Of a stretch of DNA of 64,000 nt, positions 48,569-56,331 are shown one piece after another (position 1 is the stretch's first letter; each line of letters begins with the position of its first letter). The stretch covers positions 372,001 to 436,000 of the forward strand of contig NZ_CP009518.1 of the NCBI RefSeq assembly GCF_000970325.1. Reading direction: 5' to 3'. A model generated the notes under the pieces. The model was not told the DNA's origin and did not search any database. It saw only the letters and a list, made by a program, of their open reading frames with translations. Origin of the DNA: Methanococcoides methylutens MM1. Lineage in GTDB: Archaea; Halobacteriota; Methanosarcinia; Methanosarcinales; Methanosarcinaceae. Position numbers and translations under genes: made by a program.

Positions 48569-49393
48569 ATGGATGTTGTCCGGAAAAGGGCTCTTTCAAA
48601 CACTGCAAAAGTGGCTATTGGTGTACGTGATCCGACACCCAAGATGATCTCCAGCATAGAGAAAGCCCACGACGAGGGTTATGCACACGTTATCCTTGTA
48701 GGGGATAAGCAGGAGATCGATGCCGTTGGCACTTCCCTTGAGATAATCAACACCCATGAGCCGGAGCTGGTCCTTGGTGACCTGCTGGCATCGGGTTCGG
48801 TGGATGCGGCTGTAAGGGGAACTGCAAAGGCCTCGGGAACTCTTTCCCATCTCAAGGATGTCCTGAAGATCGACCGCCTGCACCGCATGGCATTTCTCCT
48901 GACATCCGAAGGCGTTCCGTTCTTCCTCGCACCTGTGGGGATAGATGAGGGAAATAACCTTTCAGACAAGATCACACTTGTCAAACTTGGTGTGGAACAC
49001 ATGCGCAGGTTCGGGGTTGAACCGGTGGTCGGTGTCCTCTCCGGTGGCAGGATGGGTGACCTCGGGAGGCACGAGAACATTGACCGCACACTTGCAGATG
49101 CTGATTTCCTGGCAAGCAGGTTGCGGGAAAATGGTATATGTGCAAAGCATTATACAATACTGATCGAGGATGCTATAAAGGAAGCGAACTTCATCTTTGC
49201 TCCAGATGGCATAACCGGTAACCTGATATTCAGGACCCTTGTTTTCCTCGGAGGGGGGGACGGTATCGGTGCACCGGTATTGATGGATGACCATGTCTTC
49301 GTGGACACATCACGCGTTGGTGGCCACTACACAAAGGCCATAATGATTGCAAGTGCCCTTGTGGACATGAAAAATGAGAGAAATAGATCTTGA
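48569..49393 (+). CDS. mtxX: Putative methyltransferase subunit MtxX (methanogenesis marker 4)
   Basis: Protein of 274 residues related to phosphate acyltransferases ([46 protein letters not shown]). It is a family restricted to methanogens, with no proven biochemical function. First gene of mtxX-mtxA-mtxH, with the next start abutting its stop. Confidence 0.9.
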
Positions 49394-50011
49394 TTGTATG
49401 AATTATGGGGTGTTGACATAGAAACGGTTGCATGTGGATGGCCTGTTGTGAAAGGAGATTGCAGTGCCGGAAATTCAGATTCCTGTATTGCAGTAATAAC
49501 TCTTGCAAGCTCGCTTGAACCTTATGATGAAGCTGCCATGTGGGGCACCTGCAAGACCGAGAACCTTGGTGCAGAGAAGATCATCATAAACACGGTATCG
49601 AATTCAAATATCAGGTATCTCCTTATCTGTGGCAGTGAATCCAGAGGTCACCTTGCAGGAAAAACGCTTGTTGCACTTCATAAGAACGGCATAGATGAGG
49701 ACGGGCGGATCATCGGTTCTGATGGTGCTATTCCTTTCATCGAGAATGTCAGCCGGGATGTCATTGAACGTTTCCAGAAGCAGGTAAGTCTCATTGAACG
49801 TATCGGCCTTGTGGATATTGATGAGATCCGCCGGATCGTTGATGAATACAAGGGCAAGGAAGGCCCGTACTGTGAAGCGGCTTTCGTTGTGGAGAGTGCC
49901 CGGAAGAAAAGCAGGCCTGTCATGGATATCACATCAGGTGACATCATGGTATCAGGTGATGTAATGCTTGATTCGGCTTCAGGTATAGTATGTGAAGTGG
50001 ATTCCGAGTAA
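49394..50011 (+). CDS. mtxA: MtrA-like corrinoid protein MtxA
   Basis: Homologue of subunit A of the methyl-H4MPT:CoM methyltransferase, 205 residues. The corrinoid-ligand histidine is conserved as H86 in GSESRGHLAGKT. Family landmarks ACGWPVVKGD, WGTCKTENLGAEK and NSNIRYLLICG are present. Unlike MtrA, there is no C-terminal membrane helix, so it should be soluble. The start is TTG directly after the mtxX stop; no ATG or GTG fits. It likely carries a methyl group on cobalt for MtxH. Confidence 0.88.
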   Translation: MYELWGVDIETVACGWPVVKGDCSAGNSDSCIAVITLASSLEPYDEAAMWGTCKTENLGAEKIIINTVSNSNIRYLLICGSESRGHLAGKTLVALHKNGIDEDGRIIGSDGAIPFIENVSRDVIERFQKQVSLIERIGLVDIDEIRRIVDEYKGKEGPYCEAAFVVESARKKSRPVMDITSGDIMVSGDVMLDSASGIVCEVDSE

Positions 50012-50070
50012 GTATCGTTCTAGTTACATTGTTATCTTAATCATTGTTATATTTCGTAGAGGTTGTGTTC

Positions 50071-51003
50071 ATGTTCAGGTTCCAGAAAGAGCAGGAGATC
50101 GTCAATATTGCAGGTGTGAAGATCGGAGGTCAGCCGGGTGAGCTGGCAACAGCGCTTGCAGGTACTATATTCTATGAAGGCCACAGTATCGTGGAAGATG
50201 CAGATGCCGGTATCTTTGACAGGGCAGGAGCAGAAGCACTTGTGAACATGCAGGATTCCATGTCAGATGAGACCGGAAATCCCGCAATTGTCCACATCTT
50301 TGCCAATACTTTCGAGAGTATGGAGAAATACATCGATTTTGTGACCTCGGTAAGTGATTCTCCGTTCATCATCGATTCCCCGCAGCCTGCTGTGAGGATG
50401 GCTTGTGCAGAATATGTTACCGACATAGGACTTGCTGACAAGACAATCTACAATTCCATTAACATGAGCATCAGCGATGAGGAATGTGCCTCCCTTGCAA
50501 AATCCGATATTGACAGTTCCATAATCCTCGGTTTCAATGCAATGGATTCCTCCCTTGATGGTAGGATGGCATTGCTTGAGAACGGTGGCAAACTGATGGA
50601 TAGGGGCCTGCTGGAAATTGCTGATGAATGTGGTATCACTAACGTGCTCATCGATCCCAGCATAACTCCAATGGGCGATGGTGCAGGCATTGCTCTTCGC
50701 ATGACCATGACCGCCAAGGCGAAATGGGGCTATCCTGTAGGGTCTGGAATTCATAATGCTCCTTCTTCCTGGAGCTGGCTTAAGGCTAAAAAGAAGGAAG
50801 ACTCCCTGGTCTATAAGATGTGCGACATAGGAACGGTTTCCATGCAACAGCTTGCCGGTGGCGATTTTGTGCTCTATGGCCCAATTGAGAATTCAAAGTA
50901 CACTTTCCCGCTTGCGGCAATGGCGGATATCATGATCTCAGAGGCATCTTCTGACCTTGATATCGAACCTTCATCCTCACACCCGCTTAACCTGCTGGTG
51001 TGA
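50071..51003 (+). CDS. mtxH: MtrH-like methyltransferase MtxH
   Basis: Homologue of MtrH, the subunit that passes methyl between tetrahydromethanopterin and the corrinoid, 310 residues from the ATG at 50071 (AGAGG nine bases upstream). TIM-barrel, pterin-binding type: VNIAGVKIGGQPGE, FIIDSPQPAVRMA, NSINMS, ILGFNAMDSS, GSGIHNAPSSW. With mtxA it would form a soluble methyltransfer pair separate from the membrane Mtr complex. The methyl donor or acceptor outside H4MPT is unknown. Confidence 0.9.
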   Translation: MFRFQKEQEIVNIAGVKIGGQPGELATALAGTIFYEGHSIVEDADAGIFDRAGAEALVNMQDSMSDETGNPAIVHIFANTFESMEKYIDFVTSVSDSPFIIDSPQPAVRMACAEYVTDIGLADKTIYNSINMSISDEECASLAKSDIDSSIILGFNAMDSSLDGRMALLENGGKLMDRGLLEIADECGITNVLIDPSITPMGDGAGIALRMTMTAKAKWGYPVGSGIHNAPSSWSWLKAKKKEDSLVYKMCDIGTVSMQQLAGGDFVLYGPIENSKYTFPLAAMADIMISEASSDLDIEPSSSHPLNLLV

Positions 51004-51073: not shown

Positions 51074-52237
51074 ATGAAAGAACTTAAGATCAGTATTTCC
51101 GATGAGTTGTATGAGGAACTATCAAATGTTCCTGATAAGGATTCCTTTTTGGCAGAACTTATTGGGAATGAGCTGAAAGTATCTGCCGGGGATACCTCTG
51201 AAGACCTTCCTGAAGAAGCATACTTTGAACTTGAAGATACGTTTGAAGAGGAAGCATCTATAGAAAATGTTGAGGAAGAACCTCTTACTTTATCCTGTGA
51301 TGGCAGTCTGGTGGATCCGGATGATCTCGATGGTTGTGCTGAACTTTTCACAGACATTGACCTTGAAGATGAGGTGAGAGATGAAGTAAAGCCAGCCTCT
51401 GATATGACATCTTTTTCTGAAGAGGGCAACATTCCGGTTGAGAACACAGCTTGCTTCCAGAACATCATTGTTGATCTGACAGACCGTATCTGTGAGCTTG
51501 AGAAGCAGATCATGGATATGAATTCCAGTATCCAGTCCATAAAAGACAGGTCCGTATTATTTGACATCTCTGATGACAATGTAGGGGGGCAGCAAGTTTC
51601 TGTTGTGCAGCCAGATAATATTGCTACAGAAAGAACTGAGGAAAATGTTCCCTATGCTACCCTTTCTTTCCCTGATCTAAGGGTCCCTCCTGAATTGCTG
51701 GGCGATGCCGAAGTTTCACCAGCAGAACTACCGGGCAATGATACTGGAAAACCGGTTGAAAATGTCTCATTGGATGTCCCGGATTCCATCGTTGAAGAAA
51801 CTTCTTTACCTGAACCATTTTCAAAGCCTTTGTTATTCGATGCTAAGGTTCCGCCACTGTCTTCTCAGCAGGACTCTGAGGCGGGTTATGAGAGGGAACT
51901 GCCGTATTTTTTGCAGGGCGATGAAGTTGATACCGGGGATGTTGGTCCTGACAGTAATGCTGATGTTGGTTCTGATTCTTCGAAACCCCCTGTCCCGGCA
52001 GAGAATCCTGCTGTCCCTGTACCTGACCGAAATGTTCCTATCACGGACAAGCTTGAAAGTTGCATATTTGCTTATCTCCCGTCCGGTTCAGAAGTAAAGA
52101 AAGATGTTATCAAAAGCCTTCTTTCCAAGAGGTATGCGGATTCTGAAGTAGAATCCAGAATAGATCAGCTTCTATCAGATGGCAGAATAGCCAGTATTGT
52201 AAAGGATGATAAGGTATATCTCAGGAGTTCCCCTTGA
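51074..52237 (+). CDS. RHH-like / acidic linker / winged-helix-like protein
   Basis: A 387-residue protein of unusual build. Residues 1-35 (KELKISISDELYEELSNVPD..FLAELIGNEL) look like a ribbon-helix-helix DNA-binding unit. Residues about 36-315 are extremely acidic and proline-rich, with a coiled-coil segment (RICELEKQIMDMNSSIQSIKD, about 136-156). Residues about 322-387 (LESCIFAYLPSGSEVKKDVIKSLLSKRYADSEVESRIDQLL..) look like a winged helix. No family name was recognised. It follows mtxH by 70 bp on the same strand. Confidence 0.7.
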   Translation: MKELKISISDELYEELSNVPDKDSFLAELIGNELKVSAGDTSEDLPEEAYFELEDTFEEEASIENVEEEPLTLSCDGSLVDPDDLDGCAELFTDIDLEDEVRDEVKPASDMTSFSEEGNIPVENTACFQNIIVDLTDRICELEKQIMDMNSSIQSIKDRSVLFDISDDNVGGQQVSVVQPDNIATERTEENVPYATLSFPDLRVPPELLGDAEVSPAELPGNDTGKPVENVSLDVPDSIVEETSLPEPFSKPLLFDAKVPPLSSQQDSEAGYERELPYFLQGDEVDTGDVGPDSNADVGSDSSKPPVPAENPAVPVPDRNVPITDKLESCIFAYLPSGSEVKKDVIKSLLSKRYADSEVESRIDQLLSDGRIASIVKDDKVYLRSSP

Positions 52238-54636: not shown

Positions 54637-56331
54637 ATGAGAACAGTGATCATAGACGGTTATGTGGACGAGCCCGCATGTTTCGGGGTTCCGCCATACA
54701 TCTCCCCTTACATTCGCTACATAGCCGGTGCCCTCCGTGACAGGGGAATCTCAGAAGATGATATTCATTATTTTACCATCGATCAGCTCAGGACAGCAAC
54801 AGCAGACGATGTCCTTGCACTAAAAAGTGCAGACCTTGTTGTCATATTGTCAGGCATGACCGTCCCGGGCAAGTACCTCAGGTCATCCCCTATAACTCCC
54901 GGTGAGATCGAGAACATCTGCAGCCTTTCACAGGGACTGAAAGTGATAGGTGGTCCCATCCGTCTCGGTTTCAGTAAAGAGGGTGGTACAGGTGCCAGTG
55001 AGCTGGGTATCGAAGCAGAGGATGTTGTCATTTCAAAGCAGGACATCGAGGCTTTCGTCTATGATCTCTTTGAGGAAGGTTCCCTGCTCGATCCGGATGA
55101 TATTAACCACAGGCTGAGGACAGTAGGTGAGATAGGTAAATGGTCCCATCTTGGTGCTTTTATCATCGAAAAACATCCGGAGTATCCGTATGTTATGTGC
55201 GAGCTTGAGACCTATCGTGGCTGTGGCCGTAAGGTCCACTGCTCCTTCTGCACCGAAAGGTTCTACGGGCCTTCGGATTACCGCCCCGTATCCGATGTGA
55301 TCGATGAAGTATCTTCCCTCTACGCTGCCGGTGCAAAATATTTCCGTATAGGAAGGCAGCCAGATTTGTTCGGTTTCCACGCTAAGGATGTCGGTGCGGA
55401 CATCCTGCAACCCGACCCTTCTGTTCTGGAATCGCTTTACGGAGGTATACGAAAGGTGGCACCTGATCTTCAGGTGTTGCACATGGACAACGCAAACCCG
55501 GCAACGATTGCTGCTTATCCGGAACAGGGTATTGAGATAATGAAGACCATTATCCGCCATCACACATCCGGTGATATTGCTGCTCTTGGAATGGAAAGTG
55601 CTGATCCTGCCGTGGTGAGTGCCAATGACCTGAAGGCCATGCCGGAGGATGTTATGGATGTGATCAGGATGTTCAATGAAGTCGGTGCTTCAAGGGGTAG
55701 CAACGGACTTCCTGAGCTTTTGCCGGGGTTGAACTTTGTCCACGGTCTTCCCGGGGAGACTAAGAAGACCTTTGATATGAATTATGATTTTCTCAGGGAT
55801 GTGCTGGACTCAGGACTTCTTGTAAGAAGGATCAATATCCGGCAGGTCATGGCATTTCCGGGTACCCGGGTCTATGGCAATGATGAGCTTGTGGGGAAAC
55901 ACAAGAAGCTGTTCCTGAAGTACAAGGAAAAAGTACGAAAAGAGATCGATCTGCCAATGCTTCGTAAGGTCGTTCCGAAAGGCACCGTACTCAGGGATGT
56001 GATGTGTGAGGTACATGATGAAAGCTCAAAACACGATTTGACATTCGGCAGGCAGTTTGGTACCTATCCTTTGCTTGTTGGTATTCCGCTTACACTTCCA
56101 CTCTGGAAGTTCACCGATGTTGTGATCACTGGGCATGGGCAGCGTTCCGTAAAGGCAATCCCATATCCGCTTGAGATCAATTCAGCACCTCTTTCTGTGA
56201 TAAAGGAGATCCCTGGTATAAGTGATCTTGAAGCTTCAGAGATCTATAGCGGGGTACCTTATGCAAATAAGAATGAGATCCTGGAAAAGGTAAGTGATGT
56301 GGAAAGAATGCTGGACTATATTATAGTGTGA
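54637..56331 (+). CDS. Radical SAM protein with C-terminal helix-hairpin-helix
   Basis: Enzyme of 564 residues of the COG1031 type. The radical SAM cluster spacing is C196-x5-C202-x2-C205 (CGRKVHCSFC), not the usual C-x3-C-x2-C. An N-terminal domain of about 160 residues resembles a cobalamin-binding-like Rossmann region (ADLVVILSG, VIGGPIRLG). The C-terminus (about 510-560: SAPLSVIKEIPGISDLEASEIYSG) is a helix-hairpin-helix, suggesting nucleic acid binding. Substrate unknown. Confidence 0.88.
   Translation: MRTVIIDGYVDEPACFGVPPYISPYIRYIAGALRDRGISEDDIHYFTIDQLRTATADDVLALKSADLVVILSGMTVPGKYLRSSPITPGEIENICSLSQGLKVIGGPIRLGFSKEGGTGASELGIEAEDVVISKQDIEAFVYDLFEEGSLLDPDDINHRLRTVGEIGKWSHLGAFIIEKHPEYPYVMCELETYRGCGRKVHCSFCTERFYGPSDYRPVSDVIDEVSSLYAAGAKYFRIGRQPDLFGFHAKDVGADILQPDPSVLESLYGGIRKVAPDLQVLHMDNANPATIAAYPEQGIEIMKTIIRHHTSGDIAALGMESADPAVVSANDLKAMPEDVMDVIRMFNEVGASRGSNGLPELLPGLNFVHGLPGETKKTFDMNYDFLRDVLDSGLLVRRINIRQVMAFPGTRVYGNDELVGKHKKLFLKYKEKVRKEIDLPMLRKVVPKGTVLRDVMCEVHDESSKHDLTFGRQFGTYPLLVGIPLTLPLWKFTDVVITGHGQRSVKAIPYPLEINSAPLSVIKEIPGISDLEASEIYSGVPYANKNEILEKVSDVERMLDYIIV

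Follow-up and report, generated by a model that had tools for sequence, protein, structure and literature searches.

What reaction is catalysed by a putative radical SAM enzyme whose cluster cysteines are unusually spaced, and what does it act on? The question is raised by an intact open reading frame at 54637..56331 (+) in the 64,000-nucleotide stretch of Methanococcoides methylutens MM1 DNA analysed here (the window), which has an ATG start and 564 codons plus a stop, and codes for a 564-aa protein. The original prediction described a radical SAM enzyme with a Rossmann-like N-terminal domain and a helix-hairpin-helix (HhH) C-terminus, these two domains suggesting modification of RNA or DNA, in a family without a reaction that could be named. 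The gene is present in a single copy in its own genome, its nearest named relative (89%) is from M. vulcani, and in the window it is solitary, with a small ORF on one side and a run of opposite orientation on the other. Its features are as follows.

54637..56331 (+): radical SAM gene; open reading frame with full-length homologues in the phylum, single copy
54637..55191 (+): N-terminal domain, residues 1-185; signature DGYVDEP..GVPPY and VPGKY, 17 invariant columns in 32 rows
55192..55866 (+): predicted radical SAM core, about residues 186-410; PF04055 in 58/58 members, hhalign to the methylthiotransferase core at probability 97.8%
55222..55251 (+): cluster motif C196-GRKVH-C202-SF-C205; cysteines invariant in 95/95 rows, loop length 3, 4, 5 or 7
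55978..56172 (+): possible TRAM-like region, residues 448-512; hhalign score 23.0 against 16.3 for the best of 30 column-permuted controls
56167..56328 (+): C-terminal HhH tail, residues 511-564, degenerate here; family profile matches ComEA-like 2duy, HHH_3 in the family, hairpin IPGIS

Elsewhere in the window, one run at 48569-51003 brings together genes for Mmp4/MtxX, a protein like MtrA and a homologue of MtrH; it may be an additional methyltransferase set, separate from the main Mtr complex. Immediately 3′ of the MtrH homologue, 51074-52237 codes for a 387-aa protein without a Pfam or NCBIfam match.

Cluster cysteines and loop spacing

Our first alignment held 77 sequences (the window protein, L002 and 75 loci picked for diversity among the listed matches) and was extended to 95 rows with 15 further archaeal sequences (from tail-less, Natronorubrum and split-match genomes) and three Streptomyces proteins. 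Residues 196-205 of the window protein read CGRKVHCSFC, that is CX5CX2C (C196/C202/C205), exactly as first described. Loss of these cysteines among homologues had been named beforehand as the finding that would speak against the prediction; all three are kept in 95/95 rows, every other cysteine column is filled in at most 70 of the 95, and more than 60 further residues are invariant in the family alignment. PF04055 matched each of the 58 family members scanned (best E 1.3e-12), and the window protein alone scored 24.4 bits, under the cut-off of 29.5. The motif and the Pfam matches thus support, from sequence, the assignment of the family members as radical SAM enzymes.

The first loop of the motif is variable, with CX3 in 21 rows, CX4 in 26, CX5 in 26 and CX7 in 22, each before CX2C. 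At least six changes of loop length are required on the tree of the 95-row set, a quick build that left out the loop and the tail and in which 25 of the 92 inner branches are weakly supported. CX5 itself occurs in the taxonomic family of the window, in relatives from its order and in the Streptomyces proteins. The contrast drawn with the usual CX3CX2C therefore holds for the window protein but not for the family, and because loop length changed repeatedly inside the family, CX5CX2C reads as a lineage trait and no family hallmark. Nor is it new to the radical SAM superfamily, since passages of two papers (PMC10100467, PMC4389238) report CX5CX2C for HmdB/HcgA, the same spacing as in the window protein, and CX14CX2C for QueE; as a distinctive feature, the spacing had to be abandoned. 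The HmdB family was absent among NCBIfam matches up to E 0.01.

Domains on either side of the core

The N-terminal domain is highly conserved (17 invariant columns in 32 rows that include one Streptomyces row). The Rossmann-like fold proposed for it is weakly supported: the B12-binding model PF02310 reached no better than E 0.076 and matched two of the 58 members, the best hhalign probability was 9.5% and a search of the PDB gave no meaningful match, which gives little support to a B12 domain. Nor was UPF0004, the N-terminal domain of the methylthiotransferases, supported (hhalign 2.3%, score 19.5 against 17.1 for the best permuted control).

The methylthiotransferases are nevertheless among the closest known systems. 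The best solved relatives of the family profile by sequence include RimO (2qgq, 4jc0) and MiaB (7mjv), and aligning the full family with 20 archaeal methylthiotransferases in hhalign gave 98% over 340 columns, reaching the end of TRAM. What is shared is the radical SAM core (97.8%) and perhaps a TRAM-like region downstream of it, a suggestive but weak call in which the score of 23.0 against the methylthiotransferase TRAM stands beside the absence of a Pfam TRAM match and of a meaningful PDB match. In contrast to this family, the methylthiotransferases have UPF0004 with three further conserved cysteines, whereas only C196, C202 and C205 are invariant here, which leaves no cysteines for an auxiliary cluster.

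At the C-terminus, the family profile matches ComEA-like HhH chains (2duy, E 2.3e-5), HHH_3 was found in 47 of the 58 members scanned and 66 of the 87 rows with a tail retain the GxG hairpin. The window protein itself matched no Pfam HHH model up to E 5, its hairpin is IPGIS instead of IPGIG and its tail is acidic (net charge −6). The predicted HhH C-terminus is thus, by these matches, real in the family but degenerate in Methanococcoides. It is missing in 8/95 rows, namely L116 and L117, L118-L120 (families f33/f34) and the three Streptomyces proteins; its presence requires three changes on the tree, with at least two losses in archaea. L116 and L117 are Methanosarcinaceae-type and their sister L036, of the same genus, is tailed; in the 400 bases 3′ of the tail-less genes we found no tail remnant in three frames, and another gene comes next. 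The tail-less archaeal members retain the core. An AlphaFold model built from two sequences only (window protein plus L002) had a pLDDT of 33.8 and was discarded.

The described architecture and archaeal distribution of COG1031, 'radical SAM superfamily enzyme with C-terminal helix-hairpin-helix motif', are like those of this family, which may belong there; a putative locus name for it is MJ1155. No paper on the family was found in the open-licence PMC literature under COG1031, MJ1155 or the family title, and no NCBIfam model was reached, in line with the initial view that the reaction has no name. TIGR03916, another radical SAM family with HhH, linked to uracil-DNA glycosylase, was likewise absent among NCBIfam matches up to E 0.01.

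Distribution in the phylum

Matches at E≤0.001 were found in 185 of 246 sampled phylum genomes. Three weak ones among them (G079, G110 and G025; E 1e-4 to 1e-5) proved with the family profile to be generic radical SAM cores, and their removal leaves full-length open homologues, with about 40-97% identity, in about 182/246 genomes, many more than chance would give. Double matches in seven haloarchaeal-type genomes raised the possibility of inteins, which we rejected because the two matched pieces share a single open frame and are only a short distance apart. The gene is carried by both haloarchaea (for example on a Natronorubrum bangense plasmid) and methanogens, and is absent from 9/9 genomes of family f3, of 99% completeness, which we infer to be Methanotrichaceae. 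When 24 gene-less or weak-match genomes were searched with the profile, 13 gave matches, none of them above 36 bits or extending beyond the radical SAM core, so the absence in these genomes is real. Given its presence in haloarchaea and its absence from f3, the gene is not specific to methanogenesis.

Neither the archaeal profile nor the Streptomyces protein found a relative in viral contigs, and phages gave none for the Streptomyces enzyme or its deoxyribosyltransferase neighbour. In PADLOC, the archaeal and Streptomyces enzymes matched no defence model; the only matches were to a kinase-like protein of the Streptomyces operon described below (best E 2.7e-8).

Candidate substrates

Our best reading, of moderate confidence, is that the family is a housekeeping radical SAM enzyme whose substrate would be an RNA base or a nucleotide. 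Within this, we tentatively favour a housekeeping enzyme of many Halobacteriota that would modify an RNA base, most likely in rRNA or tRNA. By analogy with the superfamily, the cysteines would hold a [4Fe-4S] cluster with one iron open, SAM would be cleaved to a 5′-deoxyadenosyl radical, and this radical would take a hydrogen from the substrate; more speculatively, the TRAM-like region and, in tailed members, the HhH tail may position an RNA base as the substrate. This reading draws on the invariant cluster cysteines and the more than 60 other invariant residues, on the likeness to RimO, MiaB and the archaeal methylthiotransferases (which act on tRNA or ribosomal protein), on the HhH tail of most members, on a TRAM-protein gene close by in 12/77 loci (all of the CX3 haloarchaeal type) and on the nucleotide-type enzymes beside the Streptomyces relatives. 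Occurrence in haloarchaea and methanogens alike fits a general, not a methanogenic, task. The tail losses and its degeneration in Methanococcoides count against an RNA target, as do the matches of the family to PsbU and T2SSK HhH models, which belong to non-nucleic-acid proteins, and the weakness of the TRAM-like call; absence from the nine f3 genomes implies that any such target is dispensable in some methanogens. The nucleic-acid modification first proposed is plausible.

Bacteria supply the strongest independent hint of a nucleotide-type substrate. A plasmid search at ≥80% query coverage returned five records, Natronorubrum and four Streptomyces plasmids; the Streptomyces relative is 30.8-32.3% identical to the window protein over 89% of its length, lacks the tail and has CX5CX2C. 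In the three Streptomyces plasmids examined (L112, L113, L114), it is the first of seven genes kept in one order at 49-85% identity, followed by genes for an arylmalonate-decarboxylase/racemase-like protein, a 267-aa protein weakly similar to EndoIII (E 0.2), a PfkB kinase, a nucleoside deoxyribosyltransferase, a thymidylate-kinase-like protein and a MazG-like protein, perhaps a nucleoside pathway. The flanks of the operon differ among the three plasmids. A tail-less enzyme at the head of such an operon, and the core kept by tail-less archaeal members, would suit a free nucleoside, nucleotide or base as substrate instead of RNA, with the HhH tail as an accessory. We consider this unlikely, though worth keeping in view, as none of the six other operon proteins was matched by any ORF in the 77 archaeal loci and the Streptomyces sequences sit on a long branch of 1.69 changes per column, so the substrate may have changed in Streptomyces.

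Archaeal gene neighbourhoods point elsewhere in one clade. In the CX7 clade, mptE lies directly upstream in 17/17 loci, and a TrkA-DHH gene is present in 17/17 loci. Of the 15 mptE overlaps measured (with start codons chosen by us), 14 extend 4 or 11 bases into the ORF of the radical SAM gene. This arrangement points away from RNA and suggests a role in pterin (methanopterin/folate) metabolism beside MptE, which we judge improbable for the family: mptE lies inside the fetched stretch in only 18/77 loci, 1.7 kb distant in the eighteenth, and Methanotrichaceae, to which the gene-less f3 genomes probably belong, make methanopterin. Furthermore, IleRS and Thg1 genes share the neighbourhood with mptE, so the cluster may be a general housekeeping one. 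None of the neighbourhoods examined is constant across the family. A CxxCxxCC (YkgJ) gene is near in 16/77 loci (13 haloarchaeal-type and three of family f11), and in both f31 loci (L064:8608-11543, L065:4090-7001) the gene is the last of a run that includes a B12-type radical SAM gene, DUF488 and the gene for a 185-192-aa protein that has no Pfam match and by eye resembles a transcription regulator. Separately, three f11 loci (L042, L043, L044) have small cupredoxin-like genes immediately 3′ of the family gene.

A protein, lipid or other cofactor as substrate would agree with the best single matches, the NCBIfam model TIGR04014 of the methyl-coenzyme M reductase glutamine C-methyltransferase (24.2 bits, cut-off 360) and the PDB entry 9ccb (E 4.8e-7 with the profile), and with the ability of HhH tails to bind protein, but seems hardly likely to us, as the similarity is restricted to the radical SAM core and so says little about the substrate.

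Returning to RNA, one orphan modification may be matched with the family. Passages of one paper (PMC2584109) describe in Haloferax volcanii 16S rRNA an unidentified cytidine of mass 330.117, N-330, at E. coli position 1404, report it also in Thermotoga maritima, and assign it to Archaea and many Bacteria, with Eukarya lacking it; the enzyme is entered there as '?'. According to part of another (PMC7005279), the residue at this position in Pyrococcus abyssi was tentatively modelled as hm5C, the sole modification in that model without mass-spectrometry confirmation. Among the matches listed from the open-licence PMC literature on N-330, there was no later assignment. A radical SAM enzyme that modifies bases could fairly be proposed as the source of N-330. 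That this family makes it in the decoding centre, using radical chemistry to add a side chain to the base, with the Streptomyces operon performing related chemistry on a free nucleotide, is a long shot: bacterial relatives were found only on Streptomyces plasmids, which sits poorly with a modification of 'many Bacteria'.

Within a single radical SAM lineage, then, the cluster loop has repeatedly been altered between 3, 4, 5 and 7 residues, which makes spacing alone unfit for defining families. A radical SAM enzyme with an unassigned reaction that is retained by most of a phylum represents a missing piece of archaeal biology, and if the family modifies rRNA or tRNA, it would fill the place of an orphan modification.
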